This document shows positions 5,699 through 36,061 of a DNA stretch of 64,000 nt, in pieces; the first letter of the stretch is position 1, and each line of letters starts with the position of its first letter. The position numbers were made by a program, and so were the translations under genes. This DNA is from Alphaproteobacteria bacterium (GTDB lineage: Bacteria > Pseudomonadota > Alphaproteobacteria > Bin65): contig JAJEGH010000016.1 in assembly GCA_022819985.1 (NCBI GenBank), positions 1 through 64,000 on the forward strand, read 5' to 3'. The notes below the pieces were generated by a model. It saw nothing but the letters and a program-made list of their open reading frames with translations. It had not been told where the DNA came from and did no database searches.

Positions 5699-6598
5699 TC
5701 AGGCGGCCAGTGCGTCGATGGCCGCGGCGAGCGCAACCAGCCGGTGCGCTTCCTCGACATGCAGCGCCTCGATCAACCGGCCGTCCACCAGCACGACCCC
5801 GGCGCCGCGCTCTTCTGCGTCCGCGTGGGCGGCGATGATCCGGCGCGACCATTCGATCTCGTCGGCGTCCGGCGCGAAAGCCCGGTTTGCGGCGGCGATC
5901 TGCTTCGGGTGGATCAGCGTCTTGCCGTCGAAGCCCATGTCCCGGCCCTGCCGGCAGGCCGCTTCATGGGCCGCGTCGTCGCCGAGGTCGAGCGACACGC
6001 CGTCGAGGATCGCGAGGCGGTGCGCGCGCGCCGCGAGCAGCGCCAGGCCGAGGCCCGCCAGCAGCGGCTCGCGCCCCGGAACGTGCCGGGCCTGCAGGTC
6101 TTTCGCCAGATCGGACGTGCCCATCACCAGGCAGCTCAGACGCGGACCGGCTCCGGCGATCTCCCCGGCGTGGAGCACGCCCATCGGCGTCTCGATCATG
6201 CACATGACCGCCATGTCGTCCGGCGCGCCGCAGTCGGCCATCAGCGCCTCCAGATGCCGGACCTGTTCGGCGCTCTCCACCTTGGGCAGCAGGATGGCGT
6301 CGGCGCCGCAGCGGGCGACCGCCGGCAGGTCGGCATGGCCCCAACCGGTATCGAGCCCGTTGATCCGGATGACGACTTCGCGCCGGCCGTAACCGCCGGA
6401 CGCCGCGGCGGCGCAGACCCGGTCGCGCGCCGCTTCCTTGGCGTCGGGCGCAACCGCGTCCTCCAGATCGAGGATCAGCATGTCGGCCGGCAGACTCTGC
6501 GCCTTTTCGAGGGCGCGGGCGTTGGCGCCCGGCATGTAGAGCGCCGAGCGGCGCGGGCGGCTTCGTTTCACATCGCGGAGAGCGCGCGAAAAATCCAT
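5699..6598 (-). CDS. HpcH/HpaI-CitE family lyase (malyl-CoA or citramalyl-CoA lyase-like)
   Basis: The product (299 residues from ATG 6598; the frame is open further upstream to 6724) belongs to the CitE/Mcl family of Mg-dependent TIM-barrel C-C lyases acting on acyl-CoA thioesters. Visible motifs are LYMPGANARALEKA near the N-terminus, DLEDAVAP, VIRINGLDTGWG, LPKVESAEQV, and MIETPMGVLHA with the metal-binding Glu. The C-terminus has GFDGKTLIHPKQI, typical of the family. Substrate could be malyl-, methylmalyl- or citramalyl-CoA; nothing nearby decides this. It heads the minus-strand run to pyrD and ilvD and is divergent from pdxY. Confidence 0.82.
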   Translation of the reverse strand: MDFSRALRDVKRSRPRRSALYMPGANARALEKAQSLPADMLILDLEDAVAPDAKEAARDRVCAAAASGGYGRREVVIRINGLDTGWGHADLPAVARCGADAILLPKVESAEQVRHLEALMADCGAPDDMAVMCMIETPMGVLHAGEIAGAGPRLSCLVMGTSDLAKDLQARHVPGREPLLAGLGLALLAARAHRLAILDGVSLDLGDDAAHEAACRQGRDMGFDGKTLIHPKQIAAANRAFAPDADEIEWSRRIIAAHADAEERGAGVVLVDGRLIEALHVEEAHRLVALAAAIDALAA

Positions 6599-6826
6599 TG
6601 ACGGCGGCAAGGTCCCGAAGAAAAGCTGCGACCATCTAGCGACCGCCCGCCGGGTCCGGCACGTTGACAGAAGGCCGCACAGCGAGACGCAGTTATCCGG
6701 CGGCGCCGGGAATTCACCAGACATAAGATCGGTTGACCGGTACTATCGCCGGTCGATATTTCGGGCAAAGCGCCGGCCGCGCGAGCAGCCGGCCGAATGG
6801 AGTGACGAGCGGGCAAACGAGGCGGA

Positions 6827-23831: not shown

Positions 23832-25376
23832 TCACCAGGCATCAACCGTACGCTTGCGGCCGGCGCGGGGCGGCGGCGCGGGCAGGGCGCGCAGGGTTTT
23901 CGTGAGAATGTCGCGGGTGTCCGCAGGGTCGATCACGTCGTCGTATTCGAAACGGCCGCCGACTTCCAGCGCGGTGTTCTGCGCCATCAGCCATTCCGTC
24001 TTCTCCCGGATCGCCGCCTCGCGTGCGGCCTCGTCTTCGATCGCCTCGAAATCCTTCTTCCAGATAATCCGGGCCGCGCCCTCCAGCCCCATGCCGCCGA
24101 ACTCGGCGGTCGGCCAGGCGACGAGCAAGGCCGGGTCCAGCGCCTTCGAACCCATGACGTAATAGCCGAGACCGTAGGCCTTGCGCATCACGACGGTGAG
24201 GCAGGGGACCGTCGCGTTGGCGAGTGCGACCAGAATACGCGCGCTGTGGCGCACCAGGCCGGTCGTCTCGACCTCCGGGCCGACCATCAGGCCGGGCGTG
24301 TCGCACAGAATGACGACCGGGATGTCGTGGGCGTCGCACAGCTGGATGAAGCGGGCGATCTTGTCCGAGGTCGGGCTGTCGATGGCGCCGCCCAGGAAGG
24401 TCGGCTGGCTGGCGATGACGCCGACCGGCATCCCCTCCAGCCGGGCGAAGGCGGTGATGGCCGCGCCGCCGAATTTCGGCCGCAACTCCTGGACCGAGCC
24501 GATATCGAACAGATGGTCGAGCACCCGGCGGACATTGTAGGCCTGCATCGGGTCTTCGGGCACGATATCGCGCAACCTCGCGACGTCCGGCGCCCGGCCC
24601 GGCTCCGCAGCGCCCCGGAAATAGCCGAGCACCCGCCGCGCCATGCCGGCCGCCCCGGCGTCGTCCTTGCACAGAATGTCGACGGCACCGGCCCGGACAT
24701 GCACGTCGACCGGGCCGATTTCCTCCGGCGTCGGCGTGTAGCCGAGCGCCTGCTGGACCAGCGCCGGCCCGGCCATGCCGATCACCGCCCGTTCCGTCGC
24801 GATCAGGATATCGCACATGCCGGCCAGGTTGGCGTTGCCGGCGAAGCAGCGCCCGGCGACGACTCCCACGGTCGGCACGAGGCCGGACAGGCGGGCGAAG
24901 TTCACGAAGGTCCGGGTGTCGCCGCGGGTCGAGGCGATCATGTCGTGGGGCCGGGCGCCGCCGCCCTCCAGCCAGCTCACCATCGGCCAGCGCTGCGCCT
25001 CGGCCAGGGCGTAGATCCGGTCGGTCTTGCGGTGGTTGGTGAAGCTCTGGGTCCCGGCATGGACGGTGTAGTCGTAGGCCATGACGGCGACCGGCTTGCC
25101 GTCCGCCAGACCGTGACCCATGACGACGCCGTCCGCCGCGCCGCTCATGTCCTCGCGCACCGGCTTCGAGACCCGGCCGTATTCGACGAAGCTGCCGGCG
25201 TCGAGGAAGGCGGCGATGCTCTCGCGCGCCGTCATCTGCCCGCGCGCGTGGCGCTTCGCCGTGGCTTCGGGCCGCGCCCCGTCCAGCGCCCCCTGCCGCA
25301 CGCGCCAGACCGCCTGCAAATCCGAGCGCGCCGGGGCAGCAGGAGCGGAGGCGGAGGGTTTCTTGCGTGCGGTCAT
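23832..25376 (-). CDS. Acyl-CoA carboxylase carboxyltransferase subunit (propionyl/methylcrotonyl-CoA type)
   Basis: This 514-residue carboxyltransferase (two crotonase-fold halves) moves CO2 from carboxybiotin to an acyl-CoA. It shows GVVMGHGLADGKPVAVMAYDY, WLEGGGARPHD, and the oxyanion segment GRCFAGNANLAGMCD. Later motifs are VILCDTPGLMVGPEVE, MRKAYGLGYYVMGSKALDP and WPTAEFGGMGLEGA. No biotin carboxylase or biotin carrier gene is in this window, so its partner must be elsewhere. The first 15 codons are present a second time at about 27131-27175, which shows that the genes upstream were rearranged. The substrate is unknown. Confidence 0.87.
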   Translation of the reverse strand: MTARKKPSASAPAAPARSDLQAVWRVRQGALDGARPEATAKRHARGQMTARESIAAFLDAGSFVEYGRVSKPVREDMSGAADGVVMGHGLADGKPVAVMAYDYTVHAGTQSFTNHRKTDRIYALAEAQRWPMVSWLEGGGARPHDMIASTRGDTRTFVNFARLSGLVPTVGVVAGRCFAGNANLAGMCDILIATERAVIGMAGPALVQQALGYTPTPEEIGPVDVHVRAGAVDILCKDDAGAAGMARRVLGYFRGAAEPGRAPDVARLRDIVPEDPMQAYNVRRVLDHLFDIGSVQELRPKFGGAAITAFARLEGMPVGVIASQPTFLGGAIDSPTSDKIARFIQLCDAHDIPVVILCDTPGLMVGPEVETTGLVRHSARILVALANATVPCLTVVMRKAYGLGYYVMGSKALDPALLVAWPTAEFGGMGLEGAARIIWKKDFEAIEDEAAREAAIREKTEWLMAQNTALEVGGRFEYDDVIDPADTRDILTKTLRALPAPPPRAGRKRTVDAW

Positions 25377-25379
25377 GCG
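25326..25379 (-). repeat. Direct repeat copy 1 (carboxyltransferase gene start)
   Basis: These 54 bases match 27125-27178 with three mismatches and are identical over the last 38. They cover the ATG and first codons of the carboxyltransferase gene. Sequence outside the repeat is unrelated, so it records a duplication or recombination event. Confidence 0.9.
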
Positions 25380-25386
25380 ATGGCGG

Positions 25387-27054
25387 TCAGGTATCGGTGG
25401 GAACCTTGGAGAAAACCGGCTCGACGCCTTGCAGCCAGTTCGATGCCTTGTGTCGATACATGGCAAACATAAACGCAACCGGCATATCGTCCGGGCTCAG
25501 TTCGTGGATCGGCACGCCTTCGAAACCGACGTCGCCGTCGACGATCCATGGGCCGGACGGGTCGAATTCACGCCACTCGGCAATCTTGCTGATCTCCAGG
25601 AAATCAACGGGTTCGGGACGAATTCGTTGCTGCACATAACGCCAGTGAATCGCCAGGCAGAGGTTGTTTGCACTGCCCAGCTCGGTCACGCTCCGGCGTT
25701 GCGCCCGCTCAAGCAGCTCGGCAACCGTGGTCGACGGCGGCGCCAGCGATTCGAACCCCAGGGGCGCCAACAGGTCCAAGGCCGTGAACCGTTTGTCCGG
25801 GCGCGGCAAGTCGGTCAGGCCGAGCGCCCAGGCCAGCATGTGGCAGCAGGCCGGCAGGCACAGGCCTTCCGACCGCTCAAAGTCGGAAAGCCCGCCCTGC
25901 GGGGCGTTGACGTTTTCCCGTTCCCAGGGTTCGAGTTCCTCTTCTAGCCCCTCGCGCGCCAGCCAGGGCGGGAACTCGGCCCTGAAAGTTTCGACATCGC
26001 CGGTCTCTTCTACCCGGCTGCGTATCGCAACGGCCGCCATGCAGAGCGCGCGTTTCAGGATGCGTTCGGTCGAGGGCGGCTCCGGCTCGCGGTCCGCCTC
26101 TTTTTCCTTGTCCCCCTTCGTGTCGTTTGCAAGGACATCCGTCGCCGGTTCGTCCGTTGGACGGCTTTCCGCTGGCTCTTCGTGCGGCACGGTCTCGTCG
26201 TCTTCCGATATCTCGAAATCGTCATCGTCTCCATACAACAGGAGCGCCGATCCGATTCCGGACACATAGAGTTCCACCTGCTGGCCGGGTTCGAGCCAGA
26301 CCAGCCCGGTGCATGTACCGGTCGAGACGATCTCACCCGCTTTCAGTCCGATGCCGCGGCGCGACGATTCGTTGGCGAGCCAGACCAGCGCATCGACGGG
26401 ATCGCCCAGCGCGTCGGCCCCGACGCCCTGCCCGACCACGGCTTGATTCACTGCCAACGTCAGTTCGACAGATTTGAGATCCATGCCCGGCTCGTAGTCG
26501 ACGCCCTCGAATGCGGCCAGTCCGCCGTTGGCCGCCAGGTCTGCGATCAGGTTGGGCGCGCCGGCATTGGCGAAGTCCCGGAAGCAGGAGTCGATCACCT
26601 CGATCGCGGCAAAGACTTTGTCAATGGCGCTTTCGACGTCCGCGCGTGTGTAGGGCGTGGACCGTGGCATCAGATGCCGTTTGAGCGTGAAGGCGATTTC
26701 GCCCTCGATCCCCGGCCGGATGAATCTGTCGGGCGGCAGCCAGGTCGGGCTCTTCAGGAAAACGTCATCGAACACGGGTCCGAAAAAAGGTTCCGGAATG
26801 CCGAGCATTTCCTGCGCGAGGCGGGACGAGCAGCCGATCTTCCAGCCGGCGACGGGTCGCTGAAACCGGTCGACGACAATCTTCTGGACGGTATAGCCGT
26901 CGTCGACCGTGCGCGGCGCGTGGGTCGGGTCCATCCGATCGATGGTCCAGTTGTTGGACCGGCCGTTGAGGATATCGACGGCGGCATAGTCCGCCCAATC
27001 CGGCCTCCGGCCGTCTTCGTTTGTCTTTTGCTTCTTCTTGAACAGTCCGAACAT
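25387..27054 (-). CDS. Fusion of a 2-keto-4-pentenoate hydratase-like domain with DUF4272
   Basis: This 555-residue protein has two parts. Residues about 20-270 match hydratases of the MhpD/fumarylacetoacetase fold: VAGWKIGCSSRLAQEMLG, FFGPVFDDVF, IEGEIAFTLKRHL with the two metal-binding Glu, AIEVIDSCF with a third, and GLKAGEIVSTGTCTGL. An acidic linker (about 275-315) follows. The C-terminal part (about 316-555) matches DUF4272: REGLEEELEPWERE, LAWALGL, the PVDFLEIS and VDGDVGFEGVPI segments, and the terminal NWL and TDT. The first residues, MFGLFKKK, also look like the start of free-standing DUF4272 proteins, as if the hydratase were inserted into one. It sits between a hydratase gene and the carboxyltransferase, inside a duplicated junction. 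The function of DUF4272 is not known to me. Confidence 0.78.
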   Translation of the reverse strand: MFGLFKKKQKTNEDGRRPDWADYAAVDILNGRSNNWTIDRMDPTHAPRTVDDGYTVQKIVVDRFQRPVAGWKIGCSSRLAQEMLGIPEPFFGPVFDDVFLKSPTWLPPDRFIRPGIEGEIAFTLKRHLMPRSTPYTRADVESAIDKVFAAIEVIDSCFRDFANAGAPNLIADLAANGGLAAFEGVDYEPGMDLKSVELTLAVNQAVVGQGVGADALGDPVDALVWLANESSRRGIGLKAGEIVSTGTCTGLVWLEPGQQVELYVSGIGSALLLYGDDDDFEISEDDETVPHEEPAESRPTDEPATDVLANDTKGDKEKEADREPEPPSTERILKRALCMAAVAIRSRVEETGDVETFRAEFPPWLAREGLEEELEPWERENVNAPQGGLSDFERSEGLCLPACCHMLAWALGLTDLPRPDKRFTALDLLAPLGFESLAPPSTTVAELLERAQRRSVTELGSANNLCLAIHWRYVQQRIRPEPVDFLEISKIAEWREFDPSGPWIVDGDVGFEGVPIHELSPDDMPVAFMFAMYRHKASNWLQGVEPVFSKVPTDT

Positions 27055-27069
27055 CGGCTTCTCCAGGTT

Positions 27070-27135
27070 CTATTCTTCGAATGTCACCCGGACCGTGCCC
27101 GTCGGTCCAAAATCTCGCGCCACCGCGCACCGGTG
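27070..27135 (-). pseudogene. C-terminal remnant of another hydratase gene
   Basis: Minus-strand codons ending at TAG 27070-27072 read RDFGPTGTVRVTFEE. This aligns with the last residues of the two intact hydratases in this operon (ADFGSLGKVSVTFSA and GDFGALGSVQVTFDV). Only about 20 codons remain. Upstream, at about 27125-27175, they run into the duplicated first codons of the carboxyltransferase gene in another frame. This shows that one more hydratase gene once stood here and was largely replaced. Confidence 0.7.
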
Positions 27136-27178
27136 CAGCGGGAGCGGAGGCGGAGGGTTTCTTGCGTGCGGTCATGCG
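27125..27178 (-). repeat. Direct repeat copy 2, overlapping the stop of the hydratase gene
   Basis: This copy keeps the junction ATGA, where the stop of the upstream hydratase (27172-27174) overlaps an ATG. It also keeps 15 codons identical or nearly so to the start of the carboxyltransferase. I infer this was the original hydratase-carboxyltransferase overlap before the fusion gene was placed between them. Confidence 0.9.
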
Positions 27179-27957
27179 GAGAAGGTGACGCTGACCTTGC
27201 CGAGGCTGCCGAAATCGGCCGTCGCCGTGCCGCCGTCAGGGACATATTGCATGCCGGTGCAGGTGCCGGTCGTCACGACCTGTCCGGCCAGCAGCCCGTA
27301 GCCGCGGCGGGAGAGATCGTTCGCCAGCCAGGCCAGCGCCTCCAGAGGATGGCCCAGGGCCTCCCGGCCCCTGCCCCTGCCGGTTTCCGCGCCCTCGATG
27401 GACATGACGATTTCTGCCGCTTCGAGATCGACCGCCGGCCAGTCGGAAACGGCGTCGCCGAGGACCAACCCGCCATTGGCGCCGGTATCCGCGGTCAGCC
27501 TGAGAATGCCGGCCTCGGCGAACCGGGTGAAGCGCGTATCGATGATTTCGATGGCCGGGAAGAGGCAGGCGACCCGCTCCGCGATTTCCCGGCGGGTCCA
27601 CGGATCGGGCCGCGCCGGAATATCCGCCGCCAGTTCGAAGGCGAATTCCCCCTCGACGCCCTGCCGGATGAAATTTCCCGCCGGCACGGCCGCCGGCGAG
27701 CGGAACAGGAAGGGGCGGAAGACCCTGCCCGGAAAAGGCCTGTCCGTGTTCAGCATCTTCTGGGCGGCGGCAGTGGTGCAGCCGATCTTGTAGCCGGCCA
27801 GCGGCCAGCCGCACAGATCGGCCATGGCTTCCTGAATGGCGCGGCTGTCATCGGCCGTCGCCGGAACGCAGCCCTCGGGCAGGTCTTCCAGGGCCGCCGC
27901 CCTGTTGCGGGCGTCGATCAGCGTCTGTGCGGCCTGCTTGATCGTGTCGGGCGTCAT
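27172..27957 (-). CDS. 2-keto-4-pentenoate hydratase family protein
   Basis: This 261-residue protein has the MhpD/HpaH family pattern: LAGYKIGCTTAAAQKMLN, PFPGRVFRPFLF, VEGEFAFELAADI with the Glu pair, AIEIIDTRF, TGANGGLVLGDAV, and LLAGQVVTTGTCTGM. These enzymes add water to 2-oxo-4-enoates in aromatic meta-cleavage or similar pathways, or decarboxylate oxalocrotonate; the substrate is unknown. It follows the next hydratase gene by nine bases. Its stop codon overlaps the duplicated carboxyltransferase start. Confidence 0.86.
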   Translation of the reverse strand: MTPDTIKQAAQTLIDARNRAAALEDLPEGCVPATADDSRAIQEAMADLCGWPLAGYKIGCTTAAAQKMLNTDRPFPGRVFRPFLFRSPAAVPAGNFIRQGVEGEFAFELAADIPARPDPWTRREIAERVACLFPAIEIIDTRFTRFAEAGILRLTADTGANGGLVLGDAVSDWPAVDLEAAEIVMSIEGAETGRGRGREALGHPLEALAWLANDLSRRGYGLLAGQVVTTGTCTGMQYVPDGGTATADFGSLGKVSVTFSA

Positions 27958-27966
27958 GGCGCAGCC

Positions 27967-28767
27967 TCATACATCGAACGTCACCTGTACCGAACCCAGC
28001 GCGCCGAAATCTCCCACCGCCGTCGCGCCGGGGCGGCAGGGCGTCATGCCGGTCATCGAGCCGGTGGTGACGACCTCGCCTTCCTTGAGGCCGATGCCGC
28101 GCCGGGACAGGTCGTTGGCCAGCCAGACCAGCGTGTTGAGCGGATGGCCGAGCACGTTGGCGCCGGCGCCGCTCGCGGCCGGCTCGCCGTCGATCGTCAA
28201 GGTCACCGCCGCGGCGGCGAGGTCGCGCTCGCGCCAGTCGCCGATCGGGTCGCCGAGCACGAGGCCGCCGTTCGAGCCGTTGTCGGCGACGAAATGGGCC
28301 ACGCCGAGCGCAAAGCCGTCGACCCAGTAATCGTTGACCAGCTCGATGGCCGGACAGGCCTCCGTCACCGCTTCCCGGATCTCGTCCATCCCGTAGTCGG
28401 CCCCGTAGTCGGCGTCGCGCGGCGGCAGAGCGCGGCCGAGTCGGAAGGCGAACTCGCATTCGACGGCGCATTTGTGCAGGGCTTCGGCGGCGACGCTTGC
28501 CGGGCTGTCCAGCAGGTAAGGCGCGAAGACCCGGCCGGGAAAGGGCGCGTCGGTGCCGAGCATCTCCATCGCCGCGGCGCTCGCCGCGCCGACTTTCCAG
28601 CCGGCGACCTCCAGGCCCCAGAGGTCCGCCAGAGCGTTCTGGATCGCCATGCCGTCCTCGACGGTCTGCGGCGTGCAATCCGGTGGCAGGCGCTCGAGCC
28701 GGCGATGGTCGCCGCGGGCTTTCAGCAACAGTTCGGCGGCGGTCCGGGCGGCGGTGTCGCTCAACAT
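27967..28767 (-). CDS. 2-keto-4-pentenoate hydratase family protein (second copy)
   Basis: This 266-residue paralogue of the neighbouring hydratase heads the operon. It shows VAGWKVGAASAAAMEMLG, PFPGRVFAPYLL, VECEFAFRLGRAL with the Glu pair, CPAIELVNDYW, DNGSNGGLVLGDPIGDW and LKEGEVVTTGSMTGM. It is well diverged from the second copy, so it is not a recent duplicate. It is divergent from the MATE gene; the 146-base gap must carry promoters for both, but I see no clear consensus. Confidence 0.86.
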   Translation of the reverse strand: MLSDTAARTAAELLLKARGDHRRLERLPPDCTPQTVEDGMAIQNALADLWGLEVAGWKVGAASAAAMEMLGTDAPFPGRVFAPYLLDSPASVAAEALHKCAVECEFAFRLGRALPPRDADYGADYGMDEIREAVTEACPAIELVNDYWVDGFALGVAHFVADNGSNGGLVLGDPIGDWRERDLAAAAVTLTIDGEPAASGAGANVLGHPLNTLVWLANDLSRRGIGLKEGEVVTTGSMTGMTPCRPGATAVGDFGALGSVQVTFDV

Positions 28768-33875: not shown

Positions 33876-35249
33876 CTACCCCAGCGCCGCAGCCTTCTGC
33901 CCCGCCGGGCCGTCCGCGTCGCCGAACAGGGCGGCGTAGCGGCGGCGGGTCCAGGCGCTGGTCGGGCGGCGTTCGGCGCGCTCGGCGACCAGGGCCCTGG
34001 CGCGGGCGGTGCGGCCGGCCCGGATCGTCGCTTCGATGTGCATATGGGCGAACAGATCGCGCTGGGCGTGGCTGCCGCCGAGCCGCCGCAGCCCGTAGCG
34101 CACGGAACCCAGCAGGTCGGCGGCGCGGCCGTAATCGCCGGCGTAATAGGCGGCTGCGGCGTCGCACACCGGCGTCGCGACGTCCCGGTAGATGGGCGCC
34201 TGGCTGCCGTCGGCCTGCGCCGCGTTCCGCACCCCTGCCCGATGGTCCGCCAGCGCCGCGCCGTCGCCGGTCCGGGCAAGGGCGATGGCGTAGTGGGCGT
34301 CGACGAAGGCGAGCAGCAGGTCGGCGGCGTGTTCGGCGCAGTGGCCGGCGACTTCCCGCCAGCGGTCGCCGACATCGACCCCTTCCGATTCGAGCCGCCA
34401 CAGCAGGGCGACCGCGTTGGTCAGGTCGAGATAGTCGCCGGTCTCCTCCTCGCGCACGCCGCGGTCGTAAAGGTCGAGCACCGCGTCGTATTCGCCGAGT
34501 TCCAGATGGAACAGCGCCCGATGCCACCAGAGATGGAAGCGGAAGTTCTGGACCTGGGTCCAGTGCGGCTCCAGGCCGGACAGCCAGGCGATGCCCTCGG
34601 CCTGCCGGCCCTGCATCTCCATGACATGGGCGACGGCATGGGTGCCCCAGGGATCGTCCGGGTTGATGCCGACGGCTTCCCGGCCGCGCTGCTCGGCGCG
34701 GGCATAGTCGCCGTCCTCCTCCAGCGCGAAAGCATAGCAGCCGGCGACGAAGCCGTAGTCCGGCACCGTGGGATCCCAGGCGTGCATGATCCGGGCGAGC
34801 GAATCGCGCATGGCGGCGCTGTCGCCGCTGTAGAAATGGGTGTAGTGCGCCAGCCGCATGGCGAGCAGGTCGTGCGGATGGTCGGTGAGGATGCCGTCCC
34901 ACAGCGCGGTCGCGCCCGTCATGTCGCCCGCCGCCCATAGGTCCAGCGCCGCAATATGCGCCGCTTCGCGCTCCGTGACCGGCCGGTCGGCGGCGGCCCG
35001 CTGCGCCGCCGCCAGGGATTTGCACCCGGCCGCCCAGCGCTTGGCCTCGCTGAACAGCAGCATGAAATAGCCGCGCAAACAGTGCGCCATCGGCATGTCG
35101 GCGTCGGCGGCATAGGCCTCCTTCAGCCGGTCGCCGGTGTCGCGCCGCATGCCGAGATAGCTGCGCACCGTGCGATCCCACGCCTCGGCGGCTTCCGGCG
35201 ATGCGGCGGTCAGCGCAAGGCCGCGGCTGTCGGGATAGGTATTCGGCAT
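33876..35249 (-). CDS. Tetratricopeptide-repeat protein (TTC38-like)
   Basis: The product has 457 residues from ATG 35249, with GGAGTGAG upstream. Paired helices of TPR type run through the whole protein, for example AALDLWAAGDMTGATALWDGI, ALEEDGDYARAEQRGREAVG and HLELGEYDAVLDLYDRGV. The arrangement is like the TTC38 family of soluble TPR proteins. No enzyme motif is visible. It follows the GST gene by 35 bases and is probably co-transcribed with it. Confidence 0.75.
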   Translation of the reverse strand: MPNTYPDSRGLALTAASPEAAEAWDRTVRSYLGMRRDTGDRLKEAYAADADMPMAHCLRGYFMLLFSEAKRWAAGCKSLAAAQRAAADRPVTEREAAHIAALDLWAAGDMTGATALWDGILTDHPHDLLAMRLAHYTHFYSGDSAAMRDSLARIMHAWDPTVPDYGFVAGCYAFALEEDGDYARAEQRGREAVGINPDDPWGTHAVAHVMEMQGRQAEGIAWLSGLEPHWTQVQNFRFHLWWHRALFHLELGEYDAVLDLYDRGVREEETGDYLDLTNAVALLWRLESEGVDVGDRWREVAGHCAEHAADLLLAFVDAHYAIALARTGDGAALADHRAGVRNAAQADGSQAPIYRDVATPVCDAAAAYYAGDYGRAADLLGSVRYGLRRLGGSHAQRDLFAHMHIEATIRAGRTARARALVAERAERRPTSAWTRRRYAALFGDADGPAGQKAAALG

Positions 35250-35284
35250 TCGCTCACTCCGGAACGGGCTGGCGTCGATGGCGC

Positions 35285-35905
35285 TCAGGTCAGCGGCAGC
35301 ATGACGTGTTTTTGAAAGGCCGGGCGCTTCTCGAGTCGGTCCATCCAGTCCGCGACATGCAGCAGCTCCGGCCGTTCGATATGCAGGTTGAGATAGCGCC
35401 AGGTGACGGCGCCGGCAGGAATATCGCCCATCGTGAATCGGTCGCCGCCGATGTAGTCCCTGCTCGCCAAGGCGGCATCCAGGATCTGGAAGACATGGCC
35501 GCACTCGATGGCCCTCTCCGAGATCAGGGCCATGTCGCGCTGGTCCGGCGGCGTGCGGACCAGGCCCCAGAACACCGGGATCAGCGGCCCCATGACAGTG
35601 GTCAGCACCCAATCCATCCACATATCGGCAAGTGCGCGCTCGGCCGGATCGGAGGGCCAGAGATCGCCCTCGCTCCACTTGGCGGCGACATAGCGAGTGA
35701 CCGCGTTCGATTCCCAGACAACGGTATCGCCGTCGATCAGGGTCGGGATGCGGCGGTTCGGGTTGAGCCTGCCGTAGCTTTCGGTATCGAGCAGGCCGAA
35801 TTCGCCGCCGGCGTCCAGCCGCTCGAACGGCACGCCTGCCTCTTCCAGCGCCCACACCGCCTTCTGCACGTTGACCGAATTCTTGCGGCCCCACACCGTT
35901 ACCAT
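35285..35905 (-). CDS. Glutathione S-transferase family protein
   Basis: This 206-residue cytosolic GST has an N-terminal thioredoxin-like domain (VWGRKNSVNVQKAVWALEEAG; glutathione contacts RIPTLIDGD and ESNAVTRYVA). An all-helical C-terminal domain includes RDYIGGDRFTMGDIPAGAV. The Ser/Asn-containing active-site loop fits bacterial theta/beta-like GSTs. It could detoxify electrophiles or serve a catabolic step. It is divergent from the flavin monooxygenase gene. Confidence 0.88.
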   Translation of the reverse strand: MVTVWGRKNSVNVQKAVWALEEAGVPFERLDAGGEFGLLDTESYGRLNPNRRIPTLIDGDTVVWESNAVTRYVAAKWSEGDLWPSDPAERALADMWMDWVLTTVMGPLIPVFWGLVRTPPDQRDMALISERAIECGHVFQILDAALASRDYIGGDRFTMGDIPAGAVTWRYLNLHIERPELLHVADWMDRLEKRPAFQKHVMLPLT

Positions 35906-36061
35906 CCGGCAACCTCCCCTGATCCGTGACAGTGCCGGGGCACGATAACGCCGCGCTGCCCGGCGCCCAAGCAAAATAGGGGTTTGACCCGACGCACCGG
36001 CGGCAGGCATGGTCGATCCCGGCGGCCAGCCGCCATTGGCCCTGTCCCGGAAGCCGAAGCC

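Follow-up and report, generated by a model that had tools for sequence, protein, structure and literature searches.

The closest described relatives of the enzyme considered here are the hydratases MhpD (PDB 1sv6/2wqt) and HpcG (PDB 2eb4-2eb6), together with the 4-oxalocrotonate decarboxylase NahK/AmnE and the decarboxylase-hydratase complex (PDB 5d2i, 8ih6). In this branch of the FAH superfamily, the decarboxylase and the hydratase work as a complex (PMC5480330; PMC10470539). Here, we analyzed a stretch of 64,000 nucleotides (hereafter the window) of contig JAJEGH010000016.1 from an Alphaproteobacteria bacterium (GenBank assembly GCA_022819985.1), in which a minus-strand operon encodes two such paralogues (hyd1 and hyd2), a third one joined to a DUF4272 domain (the fusion), and a carboxyltransferase subunit (CT), with a MATE transporter gene and a gene for a pyridoxal phosphate enzyme of Cys/Met metabolism at its two sides (Table 1). 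This operon arrangement had been read from the sequence in an initial annotation, and all of its genes were recovered by Pfam (PF01557 and PF01039). The domain fusion is real, under selection, and found at the level of a genus, while its enzyme chemistry is familiar.

Compared with these systems, the fusion resembles MhpD and HpcG in fold across the whole hydratase half (TM-score of the target, TMt, ∼0.8-0.85), shares their metal-site glutamate triad and lysine, and matches them in sequence at E values of 1e-23 to 1e-28. However, identity is only ∼28%, and the fusion additionally carries an N-terminal extension of ∼18 amino acids (aa) as well as a C-terminal linker and DUF4272. NahK/AmnE and the decarboxylase-hydratase complex belong to the same superfamily and have the same fold, and adjacent paralogues occupy one operon here, as they do for the paired enzymes, so that pairing is predicted by analogy. 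Unlike in the NahK/AmnE setting, no meta-cleavage genes were found around the operon.

Architecture, conservation, and distribution of the fusion

The 555-aa fusion matched PF01557 at residues 87-269 (1.3e-10, 41.7 bits against a gathering score of 23.9) and PF14094 (DUF4272) at residues 320-484 (2.1e-12, 47 bits against a gathering cut-off of 27), placing the hydratase N-terminally and DUF4272 C-terminally as originally proposed. Full-length orthologues with 81% and 80% identity, likewise above the PF14094 cut-off, were present in two congeners (genomes G005 and G001, respectively) of the window genome (G000), both being sponge Rhodospirillaceae metagenome-assembled genomes, on contigs FZLR01000049.1 (Rhodospirillaceae bacterium Spongia_Bin9) and WTGH01000047.1 (isolate CO36386bin_9). 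Judging from these names, the bacterium of the window is probably sponge-associated as well. The recovery of this frame in two other assemblies ruled out an assembly chimera.

In the AlphaFold2 model, a confident FAH-type hydratase core was followed by a disordered segment at residues 282-323, corresponding to the acidic linker noticed at the outset, and by helical DUF4272 segments. The hydratase half superposed on MhpD 1sv6 (Foldseek E of 1.3e-18, TMt 0.85) and also matched 8ih6, NahK, and HpcG. Moreover, Lys72, Glu117, Glu119, and Glu152, which are invariant across the three fusion orthologues, align with Lys60/Glu105/Glu107/Glu138 of 1sv6 and with Lys61/Glu106/Glu108/Glu139 of HpcG, the three glutamates of which are metal ligands. 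The same glutamate pattern is kept in hyd1 and hyd2, in agreement with the claim that the metal-binding residues are intact in all three frames. Judging from Pfam, fold, and metal-site residues, the fusion is an MhpD/HpcG/NahK-type paralogue of the FAH superfamily, with a predicted hydratase or decarboxylase activity. Its bit scores fell below the NCBIfam equivalog cut-offs for DmpE (131 versus 408.8), MhpD (114 versus 350), HpaH (114 versus 351.5), and DmpH (97 versus 350.55). The first 13 residues of the N-terminal extension are invariant in the three orthologues, suggesting that the extension probably matters in some way.

Considering the pairwise ratios of nonsynonymous to synonymous substitution rates (dN/dS) between the orthologues, both the hydratase half (0.14-0.18) and the DUF4272 half (0.26-0.28) are under purifying selection, while the linker is loose (0.31-0.55). 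The fusion as a whole is less conserved than the CT (0.22-0.24 versus 0.06-0.08).

The DUF4272 half modelled alone was also all-helical, with a predicted TM-score (pTM) of 0.78. It is homologous to PF14094 proteins over nearly the whole helical domain, keeping the C-terminal family motif RHxAxNWL...TDT (here RHKASNWL...PTDT), but differs from the free members in being enzyme-fused, in its identity of 16-28%, in an extra insert of ∼40 aa ahead of the final conserved helix, and in lacking the first 25 positions, as its match begins at model position 25. By eye, a similar GDF...FGKP...L insert precedes the C-terminal motif in the DUF4272-like frames of locus L047. Because the 25 N-terminal model positions are absent, the earlier suggestion that the hydratase had been inserted within a DUF4272 protein is not favoured. 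That suggestion had leaned on MFGLFKKK as the usual start of free DUF4272 proteins; none of the ∼20 free members compared, taken from plasmids, viral contigs, and the proteobacterial genomes sampled and with start codons confirmed for part of them, begins in this way. Several free members begin with apparent signal or lipoprotein peptides (L054, L055, L056, L062, L087, L089, and L090), from which the domain seems to be often exported. One of them, L089, a Persicobacter plasmid region, carries more than one DUF4272 gene with a DUF4279 gene close by.

To describe the distribution of the fusion, 385 genomes of the class, 398 of the phylum, and 369 of a second class were sampled (partly overlapping; ∼1,100 proteobacterial genomes), with the order of the window represented by 11 genomes. 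PF14094 itself was rare and scattered, occurring in 4/385, 8/398, and 3/369 genomes, respectively. Outside the genus, none of the ∼1,100 proteobacterial genomes contained a hydratase-DUF4272 fusion, and a profile of the whole fusion retrieved hydratase-only matches from the 385 class genomes. A scan of public contigs with two narrow peptide patterns found the fusion only in the two congeners. In addition, plasmids gave no match to the DUF4272 half, viral contigs gave none to the whole fusion, and PADLOC and PHROGs returned no match. Within the sampled proteobacterial genomes, the fusion thus looks confined to the genus, where it is present in three of seven species.

Gene order in the genus and the recombination junction

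Three arrangements of the locus were observed among the congeners. G002, G003, and G004 have the order hyd1-hyd2-CT; G005 has hyd1-fusion-CT, with hyd2 absent; and G000 and G001 have hyd1-hyd2, a copy of the CT start, a hyd1 tail, and then fusion-CT. The seventh genome, G006, has only a distant hydratase, located elsewhere, whereas hyd1 was found in 6/6 congeners with the locus. The fusion and hyd2 are therefore alternative occupants of one slot. In each of the three genomes that carry the fusion, its slot borders the same genes of the operon.

The interval between hyd2 and the fusion in G000 and G001 consists of the 54-bp CT-start copy, the hyd1 tail, and the fusion's own leader. The ATG of the copy overlaps the hyd2 stop (ATGA), an overlap identical to that between hyd2 and the true CT start in G002-G004. 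Together with the true CT start, the copy forms a direct repeat that brackets the inserted unit and that had escaped the initial annotation. The hyd1 tail and fusion leader matched the equivalent hyd1-leader stretch of G005 at 52/62 (G000) and 54/62 (G001) nucleotides, and by eye the tail hardly differs from the end of hyd1 in G004, but it matched the hyd1 end of G000 itself poorly (29/47). In the tree, hyd1 of G004 is the sister of hyd1 of G005 (100/100), and the tail is thus a fragment of a G004/G005-type hyd1 that moved along with the fusion. The remnant that had been described as the C-terminal end of a third hydratase is therefore real, but the match to the G004/G005 hyd1 tail ruled out an independent hydratase gene, and the supposed array of four hydratase genes comes down to three, accompanied by a copied tail.

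The GC content of the fusion was 63%, compared with 69-71% for its neighbours (78% versus 85-91% at third codon positions), and in the hydratase tree the fusion stood apart on a long branch, which fits acquisition from outside the lineage. Although the junction is common to G000 and G001, the CT tree placed G001 nearer the fusion-less G002 and G003. Either the fusion was later lost in G002/G003, where recombination between the 54-bp repeats would remove it cleanly, or it moved again. Moreover, counted from the ATG, the two CT starts differ at 2 of 54 positions within G001 and at 6 within G000 but at 8-12 between the two genomes; this greater likeness within than between genomes suggests that the repeat arms exchange sequence by gene conversion. 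With its alternative orders and both junctions preserved, the locus clearly documents a recombination of two operon versions between related sponge symbionts.

Possible roles of the fusion and competing explanations

We propose, with a probability of about 0.5, that the fusion is a hydratase/decarboxylase paralogue, acquired by operon recombination, that can take the place of hyd2 and has in DUF4272 an accessory domain for interactions. Its divalent-metal site (Glu117/Glu119/Glu152 and Lys72) would hydrate or decarboxylate a 2-oxo-enoate-like acid, and by analogy with known decarboxylase-hydratase pairs it would replace hyd2 as the partner of hyd1, while DUF4272 on its flexible linker would be a noncatalytic helical docking or assembly domain. 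The hyd1-fusion-CT version may have arisen in or near the G004/G005 branch and then recombined with hyd1-hyd2-CT, with a homologous end in the CT start and a nonhomologous end in the hyd1 tail, leaving the CT-start copy and the hyd1-tail fragment upstream of the fusion. Pairing with hyd1 draws its strongest support from G005, where the fusion sits in the place of hyd2; the decarboxylase-hydratase complex 8ih6 is also among the sequence and Foldseek matches of the fusion. A more specific version, in which the fusion is a genus-specific 2-oxo-acid hydratase that DUF4272 targets or tethers to hyd1 or the CT, with the fusion and hyd2 as interchangeable subunits, is unlikely in our estimation; if true, it would open DUF4272 to functional study for the first time. 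In any case, the conserved link to an enzyme whose chemistry can be assayed offers practical access to this domain.

Several points weigh against the stand-in reading, in which activity, substrate, partnership, the role of DUF4272, and the direction of transfer are what we infer. The fusion and hyd2 coexist in G000 and G001, so the fusion need not be a replacement of hyd2 there. Hyd1, hyd2, and the fusion are near DmpE/MhpD/HpaH/DmpH, but all three lie far under every NCBIfam equivalog cut-off. No DmpG-type 4-hydroxy-2-oxovalerate aldolase (TIGR03217) was above cut-off in any of the seven congeners, which is at odds with a role in classical catechol meta-cleavage. For the DUF4272 half, no convincing fold relative was found among PDB and viral models (no Foldseek match at E <1; Z ≤3.5 among the re-aligned chains), and the literature library searched yielded no paper naming DUF4272.

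The separate lineage in the hydratase tree, the lower GC content, and the patchy presence would suit an enzyme of an unrelated pathway parked in the operon, with DUF4272 as a regulatory or ligand-sensing domain switching the hydratase in cis. We consider this somewhat unlikely, since the operon neighbours of the fusion slot are the same in each of the three genomes, and the long, fast-evolving, disordered linker speaks against tight allosteric coupling. It is also improbable that DUF4272 was attached by a recombination accident, as an immunity-like or exported module related to conflict, and is kept only for folding or stability: its rarity and scattered occurrence, the plasmid region with several DUF4272 genes beside DUF4279, and the apparent export signals on many free copies agree with such an origin, but the purifying selection on the domain and its retained C-terminal motif do not; moreover, the operon has no toxin partner, and the consulted part of a polymorphic-toxin survey (PMC3482391) does not mention DUF4272. 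Finally, the higher dN/dS of the fusion relative to the CT could reflect a catalytically dead protein acting as a structural or regulatory subunit of a hyd1 or hyd2 assembly, which we regard as very unlikely, considering that the metal-site residues are invariant in the three orthologues and that G005 has no hyd2 to regulate.

As for pathway context, HpcH/HpaI-type aldolases are plentiful, and the window contains one HpcH/HpaI-type aldolase/citrate-lyase gene (about 5700-6640, minus strand), which, ∼20 kb away, possibly provides the downstream step for the hydratase product. The gene upstream of the hydratase is EF-G-like in two more distant relatives and is uninformative for the pathway. The closest solved chains of the CT were 5fif (1.5e-123) and then 4rcn (4e-117), deposited as carboxylase and long-chain acyl-CoA carboxylase and presumably of single-chain carboxylase types; PccB-type chains scored lower. 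The genome has four biotin carboxylase (PF02785) genes but none near the CT or anywhere on its contig (C49), so that the link between the CT and the hydratases is positional only. As initially suggested, the hydratases may handle several related 2-oxo-enoates.

Coordinates and further observations

Table 1. Coordinates of the hydratase operon features in the window (pLDDT, predicted local distance difference test)
Feature	Position	Strand	Evidence
hyd1, FAH-superfamily hydratase/decarboxylase paralogue, 266 aa	27967-28767	-	PF01557 4.2e-8
hyd2, second FAH-superfamily paralogue, 261 aa	27172-27957	-	PF01557 7.2e-9
CT-start copy, first ∼54 bp of the CT gene, ATG at 27175; direct-repeat arm	27125-27178	-	94% identity to 25326-25379
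Tail of G004/G005-type hyd1 allele, last ∼15 codons including stop	27070-27114	-	sequence match
GGAG, probable ribosome-binding site of the fusion	27061-27064	-	CCTGGAGAAGCCG-ATG
Complete fusion gene, 555 aa, MFGLFKKK...KVPTDT	25387-27054	-	frame, Pfam, orthologues
Fusion hydratase domain, residues 25-281	26212-26982	-	PF01557; 1sv6 2.9e-28 by sequence; Foldseek 1sv6
Fusion acidic linker, residues 282-323	26086-26211	-	pLDDT <50 throughout; dN/dS 0.31-0.55
Fusion DUF4272 domain, residues 324-555, all-helical	25390-26085	-	PF14094 1.4e-13 with the half alone
CT, acyl-CoA carboxylase beta-type carboxyltransferase subunit, 514 aa	23832-25376	-	PF01039 2.7e-97
True CT start, second arm of the 54-bp direct repeat	25326-25379	-	repeat comparison

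The best NCBIfam match of hyd1 was DmpE-type (6.7e-34, under the equivalog cut-off), and in the hydratase tree hyd2 clustered with further family members, hyd1 among them. The GGAG leader of the fusion is kept in form in G001 and G005. A 136-aa frame (26765-27175, minus strand), opened by the CT-start copy at the hyd2 stop, overlaps the beginning of the fusion gene in a different reading frame; its translation by ribosomes that re-initiate downstream of hyd2 could affect expression of the fusion. Elsewhere in the window, ARAGORN called a selenocysteine tRNA (tRNA-SeC) at 35005-35096 (minus strand), which falls within a long frame of that strand (33876-35912) and is probably a false positive.

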